From Sulfuricurvum sp. (lineage in GTDB: Bacteria > Campylobacterota > Campylobacteria > Campylobacterales > Sulfurimonadaceae): DNA of 64,000 nt. Where the stretch lies: positions 1 through 64,000 of the forward strand of contig JAQTTG010000003.1 in NCBI GenBank assembly GCA_028710885.1. The letters run 5' to 3'. Made by a program: the position numbers and the translations under genes. Below, piece after piece: positions 5,206 to 60,794 of the stretch (positions are counted from its first letter, which is position 1; each line of letters opens with the position of its first letter). A model generated the notes under the pieces. It had not been told where the DNA came from. It searched no databases and saw only the letters and a list, made by a program, of their open reading frames with translations.

Positions 5206-5807
5206 GCACGTTCTCCTAGATTCGCTTTCGCTGCTTTAGTAACATCAACATCATTGTCATCAAGGAGACGCTCAATGATCTCTTTAGGGGCAGCACGGTT
5301 TTCTGCAAGGCGCATGCGAACCATTTTATCGCTGTCATCAGCAAGAATTTTTAAGAGTTTTACGGGTGTATTTGGGTTACCGGATAGCCCATCACGAACG
5401 ATTTTTTCGTCATTAAAAAATTTTTCCAAAACATCCGATGGTGTAGCAGGATTGGTTGCTACGAGTGCTCTTACTAAGTTGATGGAGTCATTTGCCAAAT
5501 GCCGTAAAACTTCAACCGGGGTATGAGGATTTTTAGCTACTGCCCATCTGGCACCCATGTCAATTGGATTTTGAGAAATATCGATCAATAAGGAAACCAT
5601 AATAGGACTATATTCTTTGTCCCGTTCATATACCGAAGTTCGTAAGGAGAGGTTCATAGCAACCTGACCTACAATTTCTTTGTGATTTTTGTATGCGTTG
5701 TATATAGATTCAACTTCTTCAATAGGAAGAGCTTTATCTTCGAGTAATTCGATAAGTTTTGCCGTATCTGACATGTTGATAGCAGTTTGGGTGGTCTCTA
5801 TACTCAT
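5202..5807 (-). CDS. Leucine-rich repeat variant (LRV)/HEAT-like repeat protein
   Basis: A 201-residue cytoplasmic helical-repeat protein. From about residue 80 it shows four or five copies of a ~24-residue unit of the form NPxTPxxVLxxLAxDxxxxVRxxLAxN (AKNPHTPVEVLRHLAND, ATNPATPSDVLEKFFND, SGNPNTPVKLLKILADD, AENRAAPKEIIERLLDD). This matches the leucine-rich repeat variant family. Classical LRV proteins of nitrogen fixers carry an N-terminal 4Fe-4S cluster; this one has no cysteine motif. It is the first gene of the operon with the 124-residue protein and Mrp. The repeats probably form a protein-binding scaffold. Confidence 0.8.
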   Translation of the reverse strand: MSIETTQTAINMSDTAKLIELLEDKALPIEEVESIYNAYKNHKEIVGQVAMNLSLRTSVYERDKEYSPIMVSLLIDISQNPIDMGARWAVAKNPHTPVEVLRHLANDSINLVRALVATNPATPSDVLEKFFNDEKIVRDGLSGNPNTPVKLLKILADDSDKMVRMRLAENRAAPKEIIERLLDDNDVDVTKAAKANLGERA

Positions 5808-5951
5808 GAGGTGTCCCTTTTGTGATAAAAATATTCGTCATACTATCAAAAAGTGATTAAATAATCAGTATTAGTTATAGAGTATAAGGATAAAAACAGA
5901 CTAGGTTTTATAAGAAAACGTAAAACAACACACACTAATTACATATTTAAA

Positions 5952-5975
5952 AATTGTGATAATTATGTAACAATT
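5952..5975. promoter_or_regulatory. Inverted repeat, possible Crp/Fnr-type operator
   Basis: AATTGT (5952-5957) and ACAATT (5970-5975) form a perfect dyad, and the core fits TTGTTA-N8-TCACAA on the minus strand (5/6 half-site match). It lies in the divergent region between the LRV operon and the rhodanese/molybdoenzyme operon, about 58 bases upstream of the latter's -10 box. A Crp/Fnr-family activator is a reasonable guess, but the regulator is unknown. Confidence 0.4.
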
Positions 5976-6032
5976 TGTAATACTCATGTGACGGAATAAA
6001 AAGAATTTAACAGTTATTAAGAGACTCGCCCA

Positions 6033-6038
6033 TATAAT
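6033..6038 (+). promoter_or_regulatory. Candidate -10 box of rhodanese/molybdoenzyme operon
   Basis: TATAAT, 64 bases before the rhodanese start codon. There is no good -35 match upstream, consistent with either weak -35 conservation in this group or activator dependence through the dyad at 5952-5975. Confidence 0.5.
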
Positions 6039-6102
6039 AGGAACGGTTATTCCGTAAATTTACGCACATACGATTGTGCACATTATAAAAAAAGGAGCAC
6101 GG

Positions 6103-7224
6103 ATGAACAGATGGTTAAAATCGCTCTGTGTGGTTGCATCATTATCGGCGTCATCAGTGATGGGGGCCGATGGGTATGCGAATAAGGATATCCTTATTTC
6201 AGCTGACGATGCAGTCAAGCTGATCGGCAACCCAAAAGTGATGTTTGTTTCAGGTGACAATGAGGATGTTTACAAACTCGGTCATATCAAAGGGTCTGTA
6301 GAGATGTTCGCGCATCATTTACATGAATCAGATATCACAGGGGAAATGGAGTGCGCTCCATTGTATCGTTGTATCCCTGATGCCGAACATTATATTGGCA
6401 GTAAAGGTATTACTAACGATATGACTATCATTGCGTATGATGACTTTAAAGGTCCAAATGCAACAGGTGTATATTCATTCTTTAAAAGTTATGGGCATAA
6501 AAATGTCAAAGTACTCAATGGTGGACGCGCAGCTATCATGGCAGTTGATCCGGCACAAAAAGAGTATGATGGATTGAATTCACAACTTAAAGAGATTAAA
6601 AAAGCACAAAAAGCTGACAAAGAAACTTTGAAAAAAGATGCTAATGCAGATAAAGCGGCATTAGGGGCTTCAATTTCTAAAGCAGATGCTGATATCAAAG
6701 ATCTTCAAACAAAAATGAATGATGTTGAAAAACGTCTTCTTGTTGTAAAAGGTGAAGAAGAAGATGCAGTTAAGACATATAAAATTGATCCTAAAAAAAT
6801 TGATTATTCTGCAATCGCCGGTAAAGAAGAAGTTAAGCATGCGATGGAAGATATCCTTAAAAATGGTAAAAATTCAAAATATGTAATTATTGATTCACGT
6901 GCTATAGCTGAAATTATCGGTGAGCGTAAAATGGATAATGTTGCACGTGGTGGACATATCCCTGGTGCAACTTTCATTGAATGGAATCGCGTTTCAGATA
7001 CTGATAATAAACTTTCATTCAAAAGTGCAGATGAAATCAAAAAAGTATACGATTCTTATGGGGTAACACCTGATAAAACTATCTACGCATATTGTCAAGT
7101 TGGAGCAGGTCGCGGTTCTGAAAATATTACGGCGCTTCAGCTTCTAGGTTACAAAAATGTCAAAGTCTTCACAGGAAGCTGGGATGTTTGGGGTAACGAT
7201 ATGAACTTACCGATTAAAAGATAA
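6103..7224 (+). CDS. Periplasmic double-rhodanese sulfurtransferase with coiled-coil linker
   Basis: A 373-residue exported sulfurtransferase (signal peptide 1-22, ending VMGA). The start is set by AAGGAG 5 bases before ATG. Rhodanese domain I (about 28-150) contains GHIKGSVEM, but its active-site loop reads YDDFKGPNA with no cysteine, so it is probably catalytically inactive. A charged, lysine/alanine-rich coiled coil of about 70 residues follows (about 155-225), which is unusual for the family. Domain II (about 240-373) has RGGHIPGATFIEW and the loop YCQVGAGRGSE, giving a catalytic cysteine that could carry persulfide. It is the first gene of the molybdoenzyme operon, 9 bases before the alpha subunit. 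It may load or receive sulfane sulfur for that enzyme, which is inference. Confidence 0.88.
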   Translation: MNRWLKSLCVVASLSASSVMGADGYANKDILISADDAVKLIGNPKVMFVSGDNEDVYKLGHIKGSVEMFAHHLHESDITGEMECAPLYRCIPDAEHYIGSKGITNDMTIIAYDDFKGPNATGVYSFFKSYGHKNVKVLNGGRAAIMAVDPAQKEYDGLNSQLKEIKKAQKADKETLKKDANADKAALGASISKADADIKDLQTKMNDVEKRLLVVKGEEEDAVKTYKIDPKKIDYSAIAGKEEVKHAMEDILKNGKNSKYVIIDSRAIAEIIGERKMDNVARGGHIPGATFIEWNRVSDTDNKLSFKSADEIKKVYDSYGVTPDKTIYAYCQVGAGRGSENITALQLLGYKNVKVFTGSWDVWGNDMNLPIKR

Positions 7225-50019: not shown

Positions 50020-51162
50020 ATGGTACCTAATCCCCCAAAAGAGGCTCCCATCCTAATACTCGATCATACCGTTATCCCTGAGGGTGATGCAGAACTCGGC
50101 GATAACCTTTTATATTATGACTATAACATCGATCATCTTTTGTCGCTTGAAGCCAAAGGTTTGACAATGGAAGATGAGGGGTATATTAGCGCATTTCGTT
50201 CTTTTGAAGGGGAAGTGTATGAAAACTACATTTATGAAAAACTTCTCCGTTATGCTGCTAATGAACCGGAAATCAAAAGCTTTATTATCAAAGGCCCTCA
50301 TAAGCACCGTACCCGTGCTCAAAGTGATGCATTGTCGGTTAGCTGGAAGGGTCAAATTATTTATCGTGCTCGTCATAAAGAGATTGGAGAATTTGACGGT
50401 CTTTTATTTACCGACAAGGAACTTTATTTTGTAGAAATGACCCTCGTTAAATCGGTAAGTAATCTCAAAAAACGTCTTCGTAAAAAACGGGCATTGCTTG
50501 AAGTTCTTTTCCCTCGTTATAACGTTAAAGCGCTTTTGGTTTTAAATGAGGGGGCAACCGGAACATCTGATCTTCCTTCGTATGCTTCTGTATGGTTGAC
50601 AAAACCTTACAGCGCACGCCATATTCTTGATCGACTCAGTTCTAAATCTCCACGTGAACCGATGATACGGATTGAGAGCTCCAAAATTGCTCATGCCGAA
50701 GATTTAAAAATTGCTGCATTTAAATATTACAGCACTTTAACATGGATGCTTCGCTCCCTCCGTACAAAAAGTCCGATTGATGTAGAATTTTTTCGACGTG
50801 GCGCGACCCAGCGTTATCATGATATTTACACGAAAGTGTATGTTGGATATGTTAGTATGGAAGATTTCTATCAAATTGCTCCTGATTTGAAGTTTGAGGG
50901 TAGCAATGCTACACGTGCAGTAGTTGCCATCGAAAAGGATCATAGCGGCGGTTATTTTCTTACCTATTTTCTTCGTCACGGAGGAAAAAAATTGGACAAT
51001 GTAACTATTAGCGGCGGATTGAGTAAGGTAGTCAAAAAAGATCCGTTCGGTATCACATTAACAGAGATGAATCATTTGGACAAAGTCATGGATACAAATT
51101 TTCTTTTGAGTCTCTCACAACATAACGAATTATTAAAACTTATAGCAGCAATGACCCATTAA
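50020..51162 (+). CDS. Possible PD-(D/E)XK nuclease-fold protein
   Basis: A 380-residue cytoplasmic protein. The middle part (about 115-190) has the order helix, IGEFDGLLF, then LYFVEMTLVKS, then helix, resembling the acidic-strand, E-x-K strand arrangement of PD-(D/E)XK nucleases. The terminal motif reads EMT...K, not ExK, so catalysis is uncertain. It has many basic residues. No Shine-Dalgarno of note. Divergent from the two-gene unit at 48.5-49.9 kb. Unrecognised family; the fold is inferred from motifs alone. Confidence 0.6.
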   Translation: MVPNPPKEAPILILDHTVIPEGDAELGDNLLYYDYNIDHLLSLEAKGLTMEDEGYISAFRSFEGEVYENYIYEKLLRYAANEPEIKSFIIKGPHKHRTRAQSDALSVSWKGQIIYRARHKEIGEFDGLLFTDKELYFVEMTLVKSVSNLKKRLRKKRALLEVLFPRYNVKALLVLNEGATGTSDLPSYASVWLTKPYSARHILDRLSSKSPREPMIRIESSKIAHAEDLKIAAFKYYSTLTWMLRSLRTKSPIDVEFFRRGATQRYHDIYTKVYVGYVSMEDFYQIAPDLKFEGSNATRAVVAIEKDHSGGYFLTYFLRHGGKKLDNVTISGGLSKVVKKDPFGITLTEMNHLDKVMDTNFLLSLSQHNELLKLIAAMTH

Positions 51163-51295
51163 GATTAGGTCAAGATACATGTCATTAGACTAAAAATTCA
51201 TCAAAAATTCATAATAAACCCATAGTATTCGCGAAAAAAATAACCCATTTACACTTGATAGGGTACACTTTGTAATGTGAATAAAAAGGGTTTTT

Positions 51296-51760
51296 ATGAA
51301 AAAATTGATTGTTTTATTACTGTTATTGATACCACTTGGGTTAAATGCAGCTCCCTATAAAGTAGGGCAATCGGTTCCACCGTTGGAGCTAAAAGATCAG
51401 TTTGGAAAAATGCACGTTATGAAAGTAATGCCGCATATTTTGATTATGGCATTTGAAAAAGGGACAGGGGCTAAAGTTAATGAATTCCTCGCTTCGCAGG
51501 ATAAGGGATATCTGAATCTACATAAAGCAGCTTTTGTTGCGGATATCAGTGGTATGCCGAGTTTTATTACTACTACGTTTGCTATTCCTAAAATGCAGAA
51601 ATACCCGCATACGGTTTTATTAATTTATGATGAAGAATTTGGACTCAAATTCCCAGGGCAAGAAGAAAAAATCACTATTATGAAATTTAGTGGTAATTTT
51701 ATTCAGTCAATTGATTATGTAAGTAGTTCTGATGATGTTAAAAAGGCAATTGAACAGTGA
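51296..51760 (+). CDS. Cysteine-less periplasmic thioredoxin-fold protein
   Basis: A 154-residue exported protein (signal peptide 1-18, ending LNA). The start YKVGQSVPPLELKDQFGKMH is that of TlpA/peroxiredoxin-type folds, and later elements (NKVNEFLASQD-like, YPHTVLLIYDEEFGLKFPG) follow. No cysteine is present in the mature chain, so it cannot be a thiol redox enzyme and may be a chaperone or binding protein. It is the first gene of a coupled six-gene operon (GTGA overlap with the permease). Confidence 0.72.
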   Translation: MKKLIVLLLLLIPLGLNAAPYKVGQSVPPLELKDQFGKMHVMKVMPHILIMAFEKGTGAKVNEFLASQDKGYLNLHKAAFVADISGMPSFITTTFAIPKMQKYPHTVLLIYDEEFGLKFPGQEEKITIMKFSGNFIQSIDYVSSSDDVKKAIEQ

Positions 51761-52836
51761 TTACACCTCTAAAAGCACTTCGAAAAAACCGGTTTAAAAC
51801 GGTGCTGATCTTTATCAGCATGAGTGTTTCAATTTGTGCAATTTTTCTTATTAGTGCTATATCTGGAGGGGTAGTGGGCATGTTTAGTTCGATGCTCAAG
51901 ACTGATGGAGATATTATTGTTACCCAAAAAGGGATTGCCGATACCTTCTTCAGTGATATTAACGCTACTTTGGTTAAGCCGATTTCACATATGGAAGGGG
52001 TTAAGGAAGTCTCAGCTTTGATTTTGGGGGCAGCTCCTGTTGATGCACTTCCTATCGTTGGAATATATGGTGTGAGTGAAGGGAGATTTAAAAGCTATCA
52101 CTTGACACATGGACATTACCCCTCGAGAGGAGAAGTCCTTCTGGGGTCTAAGATTGATGATACATTAAAACATCCATCGAGTATCATTCTTTCCAAAAAA
52201 ACATTTCATGTAAGCGGTGTTTTTAAAAGTCGTATAGGGTTTGAAGATGGTGGAGTAGTGATGGGACTTTCTGATGGAGGGGAGCTATTTCATAAAAGCG
52301 CGTCAATTATTCTCATTAGCTTAAATGATCTTAGTAAAAGCGATAGTGTTAAAGATCAGGTACAAATGCTCAGTGCGGATTTAGAGGCCAAAACAACAGA
52401 CAGTTTTATCGATTCTTATAACCAGTTTAAAATCATTAAAACCAGTTCTGATGTGATTGGTGCGATGGCCTTTTTGATGGGAATTTTGGGAATTGTCAGC
52501 ATGATGAGCATGGTAGTGAATGATCGAAAGGGAGAGTTTGGAATTATGCGCTCCATTGGACTTTCATCGCGGGTGATCATTTTAAAACTTCTGAGTGAAA
52601 CACTGATAGTAGCCGTAGTTGCATTTTTTGTTGCATGGGGGATAAGTGAGGGTGTCTTGGAATTAATTGAACATGCGGATAAATTTCAAGGTTATATTAA
52701 TGGAGAAATTACAACAGTACTTTTGATAAAAGTCTTTATGGTATCGGTTGTAATGGCACTATTTGGTACATTTATGCCGGCACTTTATGCTTCCCGTATT
52801 GATCCGATGAGTTTGATCCAAAAGGACCGAGCATGA
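51757..52836 (+). CDS. MacB/FtsX-type ABC permease
   Basis: A 359-residue membrane protein with one N-terminal TM helix (about 15-38), a periplasmic MacB-PCD-like domain (about 40-225) and three C-terminal TM helices (about 230-260, 280-305 and 325-350), the FtsX/MacB/LolC layout. The loop after the third helix contains the coupling-helix-like NDRKGEFGIMRSIGLSSRVI. GTG start, overlapping the previous stop. Type VII ABC systems of this shape do mechanical work on periplasmic proteins or lipids; they do not import. Confidence 0.9.
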   Translation: MITPLKALRKNRFKTVLIFISMSVSICAIFLISAISGGVVGMFSSMLKTDGDIIVTQKGIADTFFSDINATLVKPISHMEGVKEVSALILGAAPVDALPIVGIYGVSEGRFKSYHLTHGHYPSRGEVLLGSKIDDTLKHPSSIILSKKTFHVSGVFKSRIGFEDGGVVMGLSDGGELFHKSASIILISLNDLSKSDSVKDQVQMLSADLEAKTTDSFIDSYNQFKIIKTSSDVIGAMAFLMGILGIVSMMSMVVNDRKGEFGIMRSIGLSSRVIILKLLSETLIVAVVAFFVAWGISEGVLELIEHADKFQGYINGEITTVLLIKVFMVSVVMALFGTFMPALYASRIDPMSLIQKDRA

Positions 52837-53474
52837 AGATTATTGCAAAAGGGTTGGAGCATTATTACGCACACGAACATGTCTTACGTGGAATTGATTT
52901 GAATATTGAGCCAGGGAGTTTTACAGCGATTGTTGGGGAGAGCGGGAGTGGTAAGACTACTTTGCTTTCTATTCTTTCCACCTTGCTTCAACCCTCATCT
53001 GGGGAAGTCTTGTATGATGCAAAACTTCTTGCACAATGGGGAAATATTGATTTATTTCGACGTCGTCATATAGGATTTGTATTTCAATTTCATTATCTGA
53101 TTTCGTATCTGACATTGCGTGAGAATATTGCTTTGGCATCTTTGGGAGAATTTCAAGGAGAGATTGATCCGTTAATGGAGCGTTTGGGGATAGATCGTTT
53201 GGGCAGACGTTACAGTGATGAAGTATCCGGTGGAGAACGACAGCGTGCTGCTATCGCCCGATCTCTTATTAATCATCCATCGATTGTATTTGCGGATGAA
53301 CCGACAGGTAATCTGGATACCAAGAACGCTTTGGGTGTTTATGAACTTTTCGCGGAATTTTCACGCCAAAATACAACCTTTGTCGTAGCTTCTCACGACA
53401 AAAAAATTACTGAGTTTGCTGACACAATCATCGAAATGGAGGATGGCATTGTTAAAAACATTTTTACACGATGA
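52833..53474 (+). CDS. ABC transporter ATPase, MacB/LolD type
   Basis: A 213-residue ATPase. Walker A GESGSGKTTLLS (about 36), signature VSGGERQRAAIARSL (about 131), Walker B IVFADEPTGNLDT (about 151) and the switch histidine in ASHDKK (about 188). It is the LolD/MacB subfamily that pairs with FtsX-type permeases. ATGA overlap with the permease. Its 3' end overlaps the next gene. Confidence 0.95.
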   Translation: MKIIAKGLEHYYAHEHVLRGIDLNIEPGSFTAIVGESGSGKTTLLSILSTLLQPSSGEVLYDAKLLAQWGNIDLFRRRHIGFVFQFHYLISYLTLRENIALASLGEFQGEIDPLMERLGIDRLGRRYSDEVSGGERQRAAIARSLINHPSIVFADEPTGNLDTKNALGVYELFAEFSRQNTTFVVASHDKKITEFADTIIEMEDGIVKNIFTR

Positions 53475-54993
53475 ACTTCCGCTTGCGCTAGTTTGGCTTA
53501 TTTTAGGGCTAAGTGCTGGATTTATCTATTCAATTGAGATATTAGGGGTGGATGGGTCTATGACACTGTTTTCTCCTGAGCGTGCACGATCACTCCATAT
53601 TTCATTAATGTTGTATGGTTTTTTCCCTCTGTTTCTCTCATTATTGCCGTTTGCATTGTTTGAAAAAGAAGGGGTGTTATCTGCAAATGCAATGGGACAT
53701 TTGCGTCGCTATTTTGTGATTTGGAATCTTTTTTTATTGTTTATGACTATGGCTATTTTATTTGGGAATATTCGAGGATTACCATTCTATGATTTCCCTT
53801 ATCAGCTTAATTTTCTCCTTGCTTTTAGCGGTGTTTTTTATTTATTTGCCCTCTTAGATGCATTACGTCGCTATGAAAAACGCCCCCTTTGGGTTAATGT
53901 ATCGTTAGTTAGCGTTATTGTAGCTCCTATTGCACTGATCGTTTTGATGAATCCTCAATATGGTCAGGTAGAAAAAACACTGGTTGGCCCTCATGGTGAT
54001 AATACCCTTGGTATGAGCTTTGCATTGCTTCCGTTGTATTATTTATTAATAAAACTAACAGCGAGAGAGCATTTTGTTCCACGATGGCACAGTTTATGGA
54101 TTATACCTCTTACTGGATATATCGTCTCATTAGGGATTAGGAATTTTATCCATCCTCTCATGTACAATGAAGAGTGGTTTTTTCAGTATCTTACACTTCT
54201 TTATCTCCCTCTTTTATGGCGATGGTGGAGAGACAGTGGTTTAAAATTTAAACATAGCCCCTATCTCTTTTTTTCGATTATGGCTTTTGTGTTTGTCGAT
54301 GTAGAAGGCAATTTGCTTTTTATTCCTCAGATACGTGAATTGATTCACCGAAATGATTTGGTTGTTGGTCATGCGCATATCGCGATGGGGATAGCTGTCG
54401 CTTTTATGGCTTTGAGCATTGTTCACCGCTTTCTCCCTGGTCTTGTAACCCGTGCCTGTGCTATAGGATGGACTGTATTGGTTGCCCTGATGGCTGTTGC
54501 TTTGAGTGTTGTTGGTATGATTGAAGCGGGATGGATAAATGGAAATATGCAGCTATTTTTCGGTGCACGATCTGTATTCGGATTTATTTTGATCCTGATG
54601 GTTGGACAAATTTTGTTACGACGAGTCAAACCACGTCATGTTAATTTGGTTGAGTGGTATCACTGGATTGGCTTTATGAGCGATGCGGGAGGTGGATTGA
54701 TGCTACTTATAGCTGGAGGATGGATTTTTCCTCTTCTTGGGTGGCATTTTAGTGGAAATTATGAGTATGTTGTATTTGCTTTTATGATTGGAACGGGGAT
54801 GGTCCATTGGGCTGGGCTTCAGGGGAGTGCTGAGCGCTTCGCTTCTTTAAGTTCCACAATACGTGTAATAGTAGCATCAGTTTTTGCTGCATTATACATG
54901 GCAGGTACGATGGATATGATCGCTTTGTTGGTTGCTTTTTATGATAGTGTATTCGCGATGATTTATTGGTTATATTTGCGGGGTAAAGTGTGA
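53449..54993 (+). CDS. CcoN-like heme-copper oxidase relative
   Basis: A 514-residue integral membrane protein with 12 or more TM helices, like cbb3 oxidase subunit I (CcoN). The low-spin heme ligand helix II reads RSLHISLMLYGFF (CcoN RPLHTNAVIF), and helix X reads VVGHAHIAMGIAVAF (CcoN GHVHSGALGW) with both histidines. The CuB-binding helices are altered: helix VI is GPHGDNTLGMSF where CcoN has GHNAVGFF, and helix VII is RNFIHPLMY where CcoN has PHHLHY. It probably keeps two heme b but has no CuB. A TTG start at 53449 has GGAGG 6 bases before it; ATG 53443 is possible. Confidence 0.78.
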   Translation: MLKTFLHDELPLALVWLILGLSAGFIYSIEILGVDGSMTLFSPERARSLHISLMLYGFFPLFLSLLPFALFEKEGVLSANAMGHLRRYFVIWNLFLLFMTMAILFGNIRGLPFYDFPYQLNFLLAFSGVFYLFALLDALRRYEKRPLWVNVSLVSVIVAPIALIVLMNPQYGQVEKTLVGPHGDNTLGMSFALLPLYYLLIKLTAREHFVPRWHSLWIIPLTGYIVSLGIRNFIHPLMYNEEWFFQYLTLLYLPLLWRWWRDSGLKFKHSPYLFFSIMAFVFVDVEGNLLFIPQIRELIHRNDLVVGHAHIAMGIAVAFMALSIVHRFLPGLVTRACAIGWTVLVALMAVALSVVGMIEAGWINGNMQLFFGARSVFGFILILMVGQILLRRVKPRHVNLVEWYHWIGFMSDAGGGLMLLIAGGWIFPLLGWHFSGNYEYVVFAFMIGTGMVHWAGLQGSAERFASLSSTIRVIVASVFAALYMAGTMDMIALLVAFYDSVFAMIYWLYLRGKV

Positions 54994-55946
54994 ATCTTCT
55001 CGTTATAGTGCTCGCTTCTCAGCTATTATATTATTTGCTTATAGCACAAACTGGTGTTGTAGGGGCATTTGATTCGCATATTCATGATTTATTTACTCTT
55101 CCTATCGGCGGTATTTTGGGAAGTTTATTGAGTGCGTATTGGCGTCATCATGGAATCCGAATGGAGCTTTGTTTTTTATTTGGAATTCAGATGATGATTT
55201 CATGGTTTTATCCTAATTATTCATTGGGGATGTTGCTAGTATTGGGGTTTGTTGTCGGGTATACAACCCCTCTTTTACTTTATATCTTTAGATATCAAAG
55301 TAAGCGTCAACTTGCATTCGGTTTGGCTATTTCATATGCAATCGGTACTGCTTTGTATACCTATCCATTTCTCGAAAGAGGTACTATCGCAATAGTTCTT
55401 CCTCTAATTTCAGTAGCGGCATTACGTTTTTCTAACCTCAAATTTGCTGTTCCCGTTCAAGAGCATAAACCGTTTAATCTAGGGACAGTTGGAATTATGA
55501 TGCTTTGGATTTTTACTGATTCAGCCCTTTTCGAAACGCTTAGCCGATCAGATGGGATGGATATTTGGAGTCAAAATGCGGTAATTATTATTTCTTCACA
55601 TCTTTTGGGTGTCTATTTGGCTTATCGTTATGGAAAAGATTTACTTTCTCAAACAAAAGTGATTTGGATACTTTTTGTAATGAGTTATATTTTATATTGG
55701 CTACGAGAACCAATTTTACTTTCTGTTATCTATCCTATTGTCATTTCGTATTATAATGTTTTGCTATTTCAAGCGCTGATAAAAATCGGTGACATTAGGT
55801 GGATCGCATTGTCAATGGTCGGAGTCGGTTGGGTCGCTGCTTCCATGGCTAATGGCGTTGCTCTAGAACAGCAGTTGTGGGTTGCGGCGGCGGTTCTAGG
55901 TGTTTTTGGGATTCTGTATCCATTTTATTTTAGGAGAGTATCATGA
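54990..55946 (+). CDS. Unknown integral membrane protein, about 10 TM
   Basis: A 318-residue hydrophobic protein with about ten TM helices and short loops; the first loop contains GVVGAFDSHIHDLF, with a His pair that could bind heme or metal. I do not recognise it. GTG start overlapping the stop of the CcoN-like gene (GTGA), and its own stop overlaps the YceI start (ATGA). It is probably an obligate partner of the CcoN-like protein. Confidence 0.7.
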   Translation: MNLLVIVLASQLLYYLLIAQTGVVGAFDSHIHDLFTLPIGGILGSLLSAYWRHHGIRMELCFLFGIQMMISWFYPNYSLGMLLVLGFVVGYTTPLLLYIFRYQSKRQLAFGLAISYAIGTALYTYPFLERGTIAIVLPLISVAALRFSNLKFAVPVQEHKPFNLGTVGIMMLWIFTDSALFETLSRSDGMDIWSQNAVIIISSHLLGVYLAYRYGKDLLSQTKVIWILFVMSYILYWLREPILLSVIYPIVISYYNVLLFQALIKIGDIRWIALSMVGVGWVAASMANGVALEQQLWVAAAVLGVFGILYPFYFRRVS

Positions 55947-56473
55947 TGTTAAAGTTGAGTTTGGCGGCGGTTGCATTGACCGCTTCGGTTTATGCAGGTA
56001 ATTTGTCATTCGAGTCGGGTCTTATTAAAGCCCATACAGAAGTTTTTGGTGATAATACAATCGATCCGATGACTAAAAAAGCGACGTCGCATTTAAGTAT
56101 GGAAGCTAATCCTACTACTTTAAAAGGGACGATAGAGATATCGATGAATGATCTTTTCAGTGATAATAAAAAACGTGATGAACACATGCAAGAAGCGGTG
56201 GAATCATCTCTTTTCCCAAAAGCAGTCTTTGATGTTAAAGATGTTGTCGCTAAAAGTGGAAACAATTATGTACTTAAAGGGATGATGACACTTCATGGTG
56301 TTACAAAAGCGATGAGTTTTGACGGTAGCATTTCTGAAGAGGGAAATAATGTTCATATAAAAGCGGCAAGTAGTATGAAAATGACTGATTTTGGTATCAA
56401 ACCGATCAAAATGATGTTTTTGACAGTACGTGATCAAGTTGATTTGAATGTTGATGTTGTATTAAAACGATAA
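55943..56473 (+). CDS. YceI-family periplasmic protein
   Basis: A 176-residue exported lipocalin-like protein (signal 1-18, ending VYA) of the YceI family, which binds isoprenoid chains such as those of quinones. Family-type strands: LIKAHTEVFGDNTIDPMT, HMQEAVESSLFPKAVFDVKDV, LKGMMTLHGVTKAMSFDGSI and MKMTDFGIKP. It ends the six-gene operon; its link to the CcoN-like membrane protein suggests quinone or isoprenoid handling in a redox process. Confidence 0.92.
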   Translation: MMLKLSLAAVALTASVYAGNLSFESGLIKAHTEVFGDNTIDPMTKKATSHLSMEANPTTLKGTIEISMNDLFSDNKKRDEHMQEAVESSLFPKAVFDVKDVVAKSGNNYVLKGMMTLHGVTKAMSFDGSISEEGNNVHIKAASSMKMTDFGIKPIKMMFLTVRDQVDLNVDVVLKR

Positions 56474-56670: not shown

Positions 56671-59600
56671 ATGTTGAAAACAGTTGTGATCGGGAACAAA
56701 GTAGGTGGTGTGACGCAAACAGCTCATTTCATGGTTATGGGCGGTGATAGAATCGTTTTGGTTGATGCGGCTGGAAATTCACCTAAACACATAGCTACAA
56801 AGATTATTAATAAAGACCTTTATATTTATGAAGAGGGTTCTTCAGAGCCTTCAGCTATTTTAAATGATTACACAACGTTTCAACAATCAGTCCAAGTATC
56901 TGGCGTAGATGCTAGTGGTACGTATATTAACTATGCACAAACTGAATCAGGCATTATGGAATTGGGGGCAGCGCCAACAGTTGCAGCTGCTGCGGCAACT
57001 GAGACGGCTATTATCTCTTCTAATGCATTATGGGGATTGGCAATCTTGGCAGGTGCTGGAGGTATTGCGGCAGCTGCAGGTGGCGGTGGTGGCGGTGGCG
57101 ATTCAACTCCTGCTCCAGTGGTAACAAATCCTTTAGCTCCTACAGCGACTATTACCATGTCAGATACGCAATTGAATCAAGGACAAACGGCTACGGTTAC
57201 GATTGTGTTTTCAGAAGCTGTTAGTGGATTTAGTAACACCGATATATCCGCACCAAACGGGACATTGACGACTTTTACGAGTAGTGACAGTATAACGTGG
57301 ACTGCAACTTTTACTCCAAGCACCAGTACGACAGTCACAGCTAATACTATAACCCTTATTGCTGGTTCATATACTAGCACATCAGGAAGTGTAGCAGGCA
57401 ATGGTGCAACAAGTGCCAATTATATTGTTGATACCATAACTACTGCGACGGAAGTCACGGTAATTGTCAGCAATGATCAAGGTGGTGTAGCTGCAAACAT
57501 AGCCGGGACTAGCATACTGTATACTTTCACATTTAGTGATACGGTTACTGGATTTACTGCTGGTGACATAACGGTAGCACATGGAACGCCAGGAGTCTTT
57601 ACTCAAGTGTCCGGTTCTGTTTATACGTTGGCAGTTACTCCTACCGCTGGATATGAAGGAAATGTAACAGTAGATGTAGCTGCCGGAGTAGCGCAAAACA
57701 TTGCAGGGACTTTAAATTCAGCAGCATACACTTCAAACCAAGCTGCAGATATGCTTGCGCCAACAATAACTTCTGTTACATTAGCAGATCCAGCACTGAC
57801 AATAGGAGAAACGACAGCGGTTACGGTTGTATTTTCTGAAGCCGTAAAGAATTTTTCTAATGCTACTCTTGATCTAAGTGGAGCACAAGGGACGCTAAGT
57901 ACTTTGACAAGCTCAGATAATATCACATGGACGGGGCTATTTACCCCTTCTGCTCTTACTAGCGATGCATCCAATAAAATTCAAGTTTTAAATACCTATA
58001 CTGATATGGCGGGTAATGCAGGTACATTGGGGGTTAGTGCAAATTTTACAATTGACACACGCAGCAGTCCGACAGCCTCTCCAACATTTACATTTACAGA
58101 TGATGGTGTTAGTACTACCGATGGGATAACTCACACGAATGGACTTACCGTTTCAGGAATAACGGCAGGTAATACATGGGAATATAGTCTGAATGGAGGG
58201 TCGTCATGGACGAATGGTACAGGAACAACTTTTAATCTTGTTGAAAATCTTCAGTATAATCCGGGGCAAATTGAAGTACGTCAAACTGATTCGTTGGGCA
58301 ATGTCAGTAGCATTGTGACAAATGCTCAAGCGATTACTGTAGATACGATTCTTCCGACTGTTACAATCGTTGATGATGAACCGATGGTGACAGCTAATAT
58401 GGATGGTAAAAATACCGATGGCAGTATTCAGGCTAATGGAGGAGATATTCTCTATACATTTACATTTAGCGAAGCGATAAAAAACTTTTCTATAGATGAT
58501 ATTATGGTGACTATGCAAAAAACAGATGGAACTGTTGATGCCGCTTATACGGCAGCTAGCGATACTAATGGGCTAGTTTTTAAAACATTTGCAAAAGTGT
58601 CGGATACGGTCTATACGCTATCTGTTCATCCGCAAGCAGGATATGAAGGTGATATGAAGGTAAGCATCCTTCCAACAGCGGCTACAGATACAGCTGGTAA
58701 TAATATCGATAATACTAATCCCTCTGATCTAGGATCGATACAAGCTGTAGATATGAGAGCACCATTTCCTTCACCACTTTTACATGGGTCTCTTACCGTA
58801 AGTGCATATGATGTTACCCATCAGCGCCTTATTTTGAATTTTGATGAAACACTTGAACAAGTGAATCATACTGCTTTAGACTCAACTGGAGCACCTTTCG
58901 GTGTTATGATAAATGGTCAATCTGTGATAGTAAAAGCAGTTGGTGTATCAGATAATTCTGTTGGAATGGCTGATAATCAAGTATTTTTATATTTAGACCC
59001 AGTATTAAATGCTCGAGGTGAAAATTTTGATTGGATTAATGCAGGTATAACTGTTTCTTATACACATACGCCGGGTGATCTTACTACGGTGATACAAGAT
59101 TTGGCTGGGAATGATGCAACATCATTTAATGATTATGTTGTAGATACATTAGCTCCAGATGCTACAATAACAATGGCTGATACCTTTCTCTCATCCGGAG
59201 AGACGTCGAAAGTGACATTTGCATTTAGTGAAGCAGTAAATTTTTCAAATAGTGATTTGGATTTGACTCTAGCAAATGGAACAATGAGTACGTTATCAAG
59301 TGCAGATGGAGGTAAAACGTGGACAGGTGATTTTACCCCTACGATTAATACTACATCTTCTTCCAGCATCATTGGGCTAAATAATACATATACTGATATG
59401 TCAGGTAATCAGGGGATTGCAAATGGGGTAAACTATGCGATTGATACCCAAGCACCGATAATCAATATGGGTGCTACTACTGTTACACAGTTGACCCATG
59501 AAATGACATTTACTTTTAATGAAGCGCTGGATGCAGTTAATTTTGCCCCTGTGGGGATGTTTACTGCAACCGATGGTGTAACACAAGTTGTTGGCGATCC

Positions 59601-59808
59601 AAACCACAGTTTGGTTCATTTCGCTATACAAAGTGTCTCTATTAATGGCAATACTGCTACCGTAATGATTGATCCATCGATTCTTTCTACTGCAGGGACC
59701 ACATGGACACTTTCATATACAGATGCGCCAGGTAATGATACGCAAGCGTTGCAAGACCTTTATGGCAGTGATGTGAGCTCATTTACGTATAGTTACACTG
59801 TTATTTAA
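56671..59808 (+). CDS. Large Ig-like repeat protein with BapA-like N-terminus
   Basis: A 1045-residue protein. Residues 1-130 resemble the BapA/large-adhesin prefix (MLKTVVIGNKVGGVTQTAHFMV, then DRIVLVDAAGNSPKH and DLYIYEEGSSEPSAILNDYTTF), followed by an alanine stretch and a glycine run (AAAGGGGGGGDS). The remainder holds bacterial Ig-like units, including four with a TxSDxxLxxGxTxxVTxVFSEAVxxFSN consensus near 170, 380 and 845. There is no Sec signal peptide, so export by a type I system would be expected, but no secretion genes or C-terminal RTX signal are seen. The terminus ends mid-domain. Surface adhesion is the likely role. Confidence 0.75.
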   Translation: MLKTVVIGNKVGGVTQTAHFMVMGGDRIVLVDAAGNSPKHIATKIINKDLYIYEEGSSEPSAILNDYTTFQQSVQVSGVDASGTYINYAQTESGIMELGAAPTVAAAAATETAIISSNALWGLAILAGAGGIAAAAGGGGGGGDSTPAPVVTNPLAPTATITMSDTQLNQGQTATVTIVFSEAVSGFSNTDISAPNGTLTTFTSSDSITWTATFTPSTSTTVTANTITLIAGSYTSTSGSVAGNGATSANYIVDTITTATEVTVIVSNDQGGVAANIAGTSILYTFTFSDTVTGFTAGDITVAHGTPGVFTQVSGSVYTLAVTPTAGYEGNVTVDVAAGVAQNIAGTLNSAAYTSNQAADMLAPTITSVTLADPALTIGETTAVTVVFSEAVKNFSNATLDLSGAQGTLSTLTSSDNITWTGLFTPSALTSDASNKIQVLNTYTDMAGNAGTLGVSANFTIDTRSSPTASPTFTFTDDGVSTTDGITHTNGLTVSGITAGNTWEYSLNGGSSWTNGTGTTFNLVENLQYNPGQIEVRQTDSLGNVSSIVTNAQAITVDTILPTVTIVDDEPMVTANMDGKNTDGSIQANGGDILYTFTFSEAIKNFSIDDIMVTMQKTDGTVDAAYTAASDTNGLVFKTFAKVSDTVYTLSVHPQAGYEGDMKVSILPTAATDTAGNNIDNTNPSDLGSIQAVDMRAPFPSPLLHGSLTVSAYDVTHQRLILNFDETLEQVNHTALDSTGAPFGVMINGQSVIVKAVGVSDNSVGMADNQVFLYLDPVLNARGENFDWINAGITVSYTHTPGDLTTVIQDLAGNDATSFNDYVVDTLAPDATITMADTFLSSGETSKVTFAFSEAVNFSNSDLDLTLANGTMSTLSSADGGKTWTGDFTPTINTTSSSSIIGLNNTYTDMSGNQGIANGVNYAIDTQAPIINMGATTVTQLTHEMTFTFNEALDAVNFAPVGMFTATDGVTQVVGDPNHSLVHFAIQSVSINGNTATVMIDPSILSTAGTTWTLSYTDAPGNDTQALQDLYGSDVSSFTYSYTVI

Positions 59809-59894: not shown

Positions 59895-60794
59895 TTAATC
59901 TTGTTCCGGAGGGAAACGATAGATTTCACCTATTATGAGTGTTTTTGCATGAAAGGGATAGTTTTGCTTTCTGAACAACTTTTCAAACCATTCAATCGGT
60001 TCAGTTAAAGACTCATCGGAGAGCTTAAAGGTTCCATAATGAATAGGAATAAGAGTTTTTACTTTTAAATTTTCTGCTGCCTTCAGTGCTTCAGCTGGAT
60101 TGATATGGAAGTGCTTCATTATCTCTTCGGGTCGGTAGGCTCCGATGGGTAAAAATGCTTCATCGATATTAAAATGGTTACTTATTTCCTGAAAATGTTC
60201 TCCATATGCAGTATCCCCGCTATGATAGATGGTATGTTTAGGATTTTGGATGACATATCCTCCCCATAGTGCTTTGTTCATATCAAAGTGGATACGATTA
60301 CTCCAATGTTTAGCTGGTACCAGCGTGATGAATAGCCCCTCTACCATCATTGATTCCCACCATTCTAATTCAAAGCACCGTTCGCGATCTATTTTCCCTT
60401 TTAGGTATCGCCAAAATCCAGCAGGTGCCACTATAATTGTTTGAGGATTTTGTTTGAGGAGAAACATTACTGAGGTCTTGTCGTAGTGATCATAGTGGGC
60501 ATGGGTGATGAGAATTACGTCAGCATACAATTTCTCTTTAGGGATAGGAAGTGGACTCTGGCGACGATACATGGGGATATTTCCCAATACAGGATCTATC
60601 GCTACTGTCGTTGTCCCGATTTTTAGCCAGAGGGTTGCATGTCCTAACCATAGTGCATATTCACTATCCGGAAGTATTTCTTGAGAGATAATAGGGAGAG
60701 ATTTGTGTTCTTGTTCGGATGTTTGAAATGATTTTGAAAATTGCCATTTCAGTATTGTTTTAAGAGATATTTTTGGAGAAGTATATTTTTGCAT
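59895..60794 (-). CDS. MBL-fold metal-dependent hydrolase (UlaG/NAPE-PLD-like)
   Basis: A 299-residue metallo-beta-lactamase-fold hydrolase. The metal site is THAHYDHYDKTS (about 101), with further ligands in AKHWSNR (about 163), YHSGDTAYG (about 196) and IPIHYGTFKLSDE (about 255). The ATLWLKIGTTTVAIDPVLG start is typical of the UlaG/RomA/NAPE-PLD branch. The substrate is unknown. It lies 5 bases after the CDGSH gene, in the same transcript. Confidence 0.88.
   Translation of the reverse strand: MQKYTSPKISLKTILKWQFSKSFQTSEQEHKSLPIISQEILPDSEYALWLGHATLWLKIGTTTVAIDPVLGNIPMYRRQSPLPIPKEKLYADVILITHAHYDHYDKTSVMFLLKQNPQTIIVAPAGFWRYLKGKIDRERCFELEWWESMMVEGLFITLVPAKHWSNRIHFDMNKALWGGYVIQNPKHTIYHSGDTAYGEHFQEISNHFNIDEAFLPIGAYRPEEIMKHFHINPAEALKAAENLKVKTLIPIHYGTFKLSDESLTEPIEWFEKLFRKQNYPFHAKTLIIGEIYRFPPEQD

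Follow-up and report, generated by a model that had tools for sequence, protein, structure and literature searches.

A described parallel to the locus reported here is a linked gene pair of Burkholderia that encodes the cytochrome b561 LcoA and the YceI lipocalin BcnA, which act together against lipid peroxyl radicals and loss of which raises lipid peroxidation (PMC9113575). LcoA is proposed to re-reduce the quinone of BcnA, and isoprenoids or ubiquinone-8 are often seen bound in structures of YceI proteins (PMC9113575). At the Sulfuricurvum (Campylobacterota) locus a YceI lipocalin is likewise encoded with a probable di-heme membrane protein, its heme sites being assigned from residue conservation only. 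In contrast to LcoA–BcnA, this membrane partner is a COX1 relative, that is, a relative of the heme-copper oxidases (HCOs), rather than a b561, such that the likeness lies solely in how the two systems may work, and the module adds genes for an ABC pair, an MFS-fold protein and a small secreted protein. The ABC pair in turn resembles BceAB, LolCD and MacB, with an FtsX and MacB_PCD permease, a LolD-like ATPase and, near many copies, an OmpR-type two-component system, but differs from them in being obligately linked to the HCO relative and the MFS-fold protein. Type VII ABC transporters act on periplasmic or membrane-embedded substrates.

The window analysed (a stretch of 64,000 nucleotides) carries the gene for the HCO relative on the forward strand at positions 53449–54993. 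An earlier reading of this DNA from its letters alone (the sequence-only reading) had placed the gene within these limits, and had done so correctly: the frame opens with an in-frame TTG at 53449, is preceded by GGAGG at 53438–53442 and stays open to the stop at 54993. The start sits within the 3′ end of the upstream ATPase gene, with an overlap of 26 bases. The product of 514 residues, numbered here as in P0001 with residue 1 at 53458, comprises a 12-helix core and four extra C-terminal helices (residues 397–511; 54646–54990, forward strand), for which Pfam holds no family and in which His450 is invariant and position 402 is His or Asn.

Profile searches link the protein to the oxidase superfamily. 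COX1 was the sole Pfam match at E values up to 1, with no match to the NnrS profile, and scored 20.6 bits (E 2.2e-4), which is below the curated cut-off of 34.8; no NCBIfam family was matched, and the single sequence as query found no direct sequence match among solved structures. This weak single-sequence score is what speaks for a non-heme membrane protein that merely resembles an oxidase, a reading we consider very improbable, since COX1 is matched by 44 of the 45 aligned family members (best E 1.2e-9), the fold match described below reaches a Z of 27 and the invariant residues are exactly those associated with heme. TIGR00780 (ccoN) is also matched, weakly, by 21 of the 45. With the family profile as query, CcoN of Pseudomonas stutzeri (3mk7) was the sole related match among solved structures, at a marginal E of 0.13; the alignment nevertheless ran from end to end across 343 columns and kept the heme motifs in register. 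Together with the ccoN matches, this supports CcoN as the nearest relative, in line with the CcoN-like protein proposed in the sequence-only reading.

An AlphaFold2 model of the HCO relative, built on a 45-row alignment, contains 16 long helices (pLDDT 83.6, pTM 0.83). Foldseek ranked cbb3 CcoN chains first (E 2e-6), and VIA-align gave Z-scores of 27.6 to NOR (4xyd) and 27.4 to CcoN (3mk7), with NOR and CcoN chains overall matching at Z 26.6–27.6 over ~380 residues. The match covers residues 1–395, corresponding to the 12-helix core of heme-copper oxidases and NO reductases, and the model thus strongly supports a subunit I fold of the heme-copper oxidase superfamily. Residues 169–181, where Asp181 sits, are poorly modelled (pLDDT <50), and the old copper pocket therefore cannot be inspected in the model.

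The conservation of the ligand positions was counted in 65 relatives that are 42–82% identical, and set against CcoN, cNOR, qNOR, gNOR and aa3 proteins from within the phylum in a class alignment. His47 in helix II (codon 53596–53598, forward strand), at the position of the low-spin heme ligand, and the His305-Ala-His307 motif of helix X (54370–54378, forward strand), at the positions of the high-spin and low-spin heme ligands, are each invariant (65/65), as the earlier claim of retained heme ligands would have it. The helix II histidine aligns with that of CcoN, NOR and aa3, and the helix X HxH with that of all HCO classes. His297 and His450 are likewise invariant; Arg44 of helix II has at most one exception and, like His297, is common to CcoN and NOR. 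From this pattern, two heme sites are most likely kept.

The copper site presents the opposite picture, and the loss of its histidines that had been read from the single sequence extends to the whole family, so that the earlier proposal of an oxidase-superfamily protein lacking CuB stands. The position of the helix VI CuB histidine, GHN in CcoN, reads GDN in the HCO relative, and the substituting Asp181 (codon 53998–54000, forward strand) is found in 65/65 aligned relatives, so that the His-to-Asp change is fixed. Helix VII carries GHH in all other classes compared, whereas the HCO relatives have no conserved His pair at its end (Arg228–Pro233; 54139–54156, forward strand). The hhalign and MAFFT registers for this helix differ by ~4 residues, which decides which residues face the old copper site: in one, the HH positions are taken by the variable residue 227 and the invariant Arg228, the latter on the second His position, and in the other by residue 232 (33 His, 25 Gly) and residue 233 (Pro, Glu, Ser or Thr). 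Neither register yields a conserved His pair, and replacement of the metal by an Asp–Arg pair is conceivable from the alignment. With the three CuB/FeB histidines absent, we speak of a relative of the heme-copper oxidases rather than of a heme-copper oxidase. The heme motifs and the copper-histidine loss are fixed in the family and are not due to chance, and we are highly confident that the protein represents a CuB-less, probably di-heme branch of the superfamily. Loss of CuB with retention of the heme sites amounts to a natural experiment on the oxidase scaffold minus its catalytic metal.

Several polar residues are as conserved as the heme ligands or nearly so, with Asp181, Tyr236 and Glu239 present in 65/65 relatives and His179 in 64/65. 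Such conservation would also be expected if the HCO relative were still an enzyme, reducing NO or O2 at a site in which Asp181, His179, Glu239 and Tyr236 hold another non-heme metal, in the manner of an extreme NOR, and there is a precedent in the gNOR of the same family of bacteria, where Asp occupies the same helix VI position of an active NOR-type site. However, gNOR retains both helix VII histidines (SHH) and an adjoining gene for a cupredoxin-like subunit, neither of which is seen in the HCO-relative family, and an invariant Arg close to the helix VII site would make a cation there less favourable. In addition, the source genome already carries CcoN, and several of the module-bearing genomes carry cNOR or gNOR. 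A surviving enzymatic site is thus improbable, if less so than the non-heme reading above.

Comparison with the named classes further separates the family from each of them. CcoN, the closest by sequence profile, shares the 12-helix core, the helix II RxxH and, in helix X, the HxH with H(x)2D ahead of it, but the HCO relative lacks the CuB histidines, has four extra helices, forms a separate clade and is encoded beside ABC, MFS-fold and YceI genes rather than CcoO or CcoP. The best structural match, cNOR/NorB (4xyd), retains both the His and the Glu of helix VI together with the HH of helix VII, which the HCO relative does not. We also considered whether the protein might simply be gNOR, the unusual NO reductase with an active-site Asp reported from Sulfurimonas, Sulfurovum and Persephonella (PMC8756737), as both share the helix VI His-to-Asp change. 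Proteins of these genomes (L152–L155) that we named gNOR on account of their active-site Asp and of the genera listed in that report (PMC8756737) have Asp in place of the NOR Glu as well, score 160–174 bits to COX1 and fall in another clade, with the helix VII HH and a cupredoxin-like neighbour. They co-occur with the HCO-relative family in the same genomes, such as G047, G087 and G006. In a quick maximum-likelihood tree with long branches, which supports the separateness of the clade and not its sister group, the HCO-relative family stands on its own branch (SH-aLRT 100). The alignment, with no helix VII HH, and the tree rule out gNOR identity, to which we accord next to no probability. In a search confined to open-access literature we found no description of CuB-less oxidase relatives, which is weak evidence that none exists.

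In the window, the gene lies in a run of overlapping genes on the forward strand. The run begins with a small secreted protein (51296–51760) that has no known domain and no CXXC, for which no family was found, and continues with a type VII ABC permease bearing MacB_PCD and FtsX domains (51757–52836) and the LolD-like ABC ATPase (52833–53474). The HCO relative is followed by a compact membrane protein of 318 residues (54990–55946) and a YceI family lipocalin (55943–56473; PF04264, 72 bits), the profile of which matches E. coli YceI (1y0g) at 5e-15. The 318-residue protein has no Pfam domain; its model (AF2, pLDDT 93.5) matches MFS transporters at Z 25 over ~310 residues, and it is accordingly predicted to have a 12-helix MFS fold.

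To what extent this gene set is constant was surveyed at 39 loci, which belong to Sulfuricurvum, to other members of the Sulfurimonadaceae and to four more families. The permease and the MFS-fold gene accompany the HCO gene in 39/39, with the permease adjoining it in every case, and the small secreted protein is found beside 26/39. The ATPase was called in 36/39, its three misses being hidden by overlapping longer frames, and YceI also in 36/39, where the misses include one hidden by a longer frame and one in-frame fusion of the MFS-fold protein with YceI; one copy (L141) is without YceI. A metallophosphoesterase is present in 22/39 loci. The order of the genes varies, with the MFS-fold protein and YceI coming first in L140, L142 and L145, so that selection, rather than simple vertical inheritance of the order, maintains the set. 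Membership of the HCO relative in a fixed module with the ABC pair, the MFS-fold protein and YceI, which is new here, is very likely. The strict tie of the HCO gene to those for the lipocalin, the ABC pair and the orphan MFS-fold protein makes this a concrete, testable system, and offers a hypothesis on the function of genes likely to be listed in databases as (weak) cytochrome oxidase.

Individual loci show variations on this arrangement. The MFS-fold protein and YceI share one open frame of 502 residues at L066:7622-9127, a possible fusion, and G201 has its MFS-fold gene broken into two parts. The HCO gene of L149 (G483; 5632–7173) is broken by frame changes and stops, and the rest of the module remains. 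Apparent fusions of the ATPase and HCO genes in L140 and L143 were rejected, as the long frames consist of out-of-frame open sequence and not of ATPase. L064 and L066 further carry, within or next to the module, a Porin_O_P-like gene and one for a small secreted product that is similar to a phosphate-binding protein. Upstream of the run in the window, a 380-residue protein without Pfam domain (50020–51162) is conserved in Sulfuricurvum; directly after the run, a 1045-residue protein with Big_12 (bacterial Ig-like) repeats (56671–59808) is absent from the loci of neighbouring species, and a metallo-beta-lactamase gene (Lactamase_B_2; 59895–60794) recurs beside the module in Sulfuricurvum and in f4 and f11 genomes.

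Full-length HCO relatives are encoded in 60 of 397 Campylobacterota genomes and the MFS-fold protein in the identical 60, the two lists having been compared by eye. Weak HCO matches in the remaining genomes cover the helix X region only and fit ordinary CcoN; two families with such weak matches only (f2 and f3, which we guess to be probably Helicobacteraceae and Campylobacteraceae) comprise genera without the module. Loss of CuB with both heme sites kept is fixed across at least five families of this one phylum. No HCO relatives were found on plasmid or viral contigs, and a scan of genome contigs with the single protein returned only close (>=61%) Campylobacterota relatives. YceI, in comparison, was detected in 17 of the 18 genomes examined for it, and the source genome has up to five copies; this rules it out as a module-specific gene and makes YceI linkage alone weak. 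COX1 matches of this type should not be counted as O2 or NO reductases in genome-based reconstructions of metabolism.

The sequence-only reading had left electron transfer, heme handling and sensing side by side as uses for the protein. The operon context favours electron transfer for the upkeep of envelope lipids or quinones over heme handling, and the constant gene company suggests that an old respiratory enzyme has found a second use, carrying electrons for the maintenance of the membrane. The simplest view is that electrons are handed to, or taken from, a lipid or quinone cargo. Overall, our best explanation, to which we give an even chance, is that the HCO relative acts as a copper-less di-heme electron-transfer protein serving the envelope module. 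As a di-heme b protein of the inner membrane dedicated to this module, it would shuttle electrons between the YceI cargo on one side and, on the other, the quinone pool or a donor in the periplasm. The lipocalin, encoded two genes downstream, would carry an isoprenoid or quinone, which the HCO relative would keep reduced; the MFS-fold protein and the type VII ABC pair may help to load, move or flip the lipid. This specific redox role towards YceI is less likely than not, and we are similarly tentative about an oxidase core that has lost its copper site and been taken over as the obligate di-heme redox subunit of a lipid-carrier machine composed of the ABC pair, the MFS-fold protein and YceI. 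That the protein binds heme, which way electrons flow, what YceI carries and the physiological (stress) role are all points that we infer. If true, the scheme would give free-living Campylobacterota a new kind of redox-maintenance system for the envelope, a counterpart of b561–YceI but independent of it. The two hemes of an HCO sit at similar depths in the membrane, unlike those of b561; thus, the HCO relative alone would not take electrons across the full membrane, unless the extra helices, with His450, hold another cofactor.

Regulatory genes bear on the remaining use. An OmpR-type two-component system adjoins many of the module copies, with a response regulator in 13/39 loci, and could switch the module on in these relatives; the Sulfuricurvum copies have no regulator pair alongside. 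Sulfurimonas-like genomes (L055, L056, L058, L059 and L061) encode, ~three genes from the module, an OmpR-type regulator and a histidine kinase whose N-terminal domain is of the ODP kind (di-iron, metallo-beta-lactamase type), a possible oxygen- or NO-sensing pair. Upstream of the run in the window, 84 bp before the first gene, lies an operator-like direct repeat with an 11-bp period, TTCATCAAAAATTCAT (51197–51212, forward strand). Direct repeats with an 11-bp period are of the kind bound by OmpR/PhoB-type regulators. TTCAT-N6-TTCAT occurs exactly in 25 of 36 module upstream regions compared with 0.17% of dinucleotide shuffles, as counted on the same sequences where it was first spotted and irrespective of the kinship of the genomes; its spread over several families makes chance unlikely. 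It is also seen upstream of the response-regulator gene in L136, L137 and L148 and of a separated MFS-fold–YceI unit in L064, and is missing from the Sulfurimonas-like group (L055 and others). No FNR or NssR boxes were found upstream of the module.

Such an arrangement would also suit a sensor, heme-based and responsive to redox state or gas, which gates the type VII ABC transporter or signals to the two-component system in a BceAB-like manner, given the tight coupling to the ABC pair (39/39 loci), the regulator adjoining many copies and the repeat shared with the regulator gene. Against this, Pfam profile searches detect no signalling domain on the HCO relative, the Sulfuricurvum copies stand without a regulator pair, and the one-to-one link with the MFS-fold transporter in 60 genomes suggests transport or enzymatic work. 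We therefore rate a sensor as unlikely, though somewhat less so than an enzyme, and retain electron transfer for the envelope module as the preferred reading. Across the genome, TTCAT-N6-TTCATA was counted at 10 sites, several of them inside genes, versus 2 for the reversed pattern. Further copies precede a lipoprotein gene at G000:C29:231417 (L167) and, at G000:C19:162721 (L160), a gene whose secreted product bears a CxxCH heme motif, both of which are possible members of the regulon.
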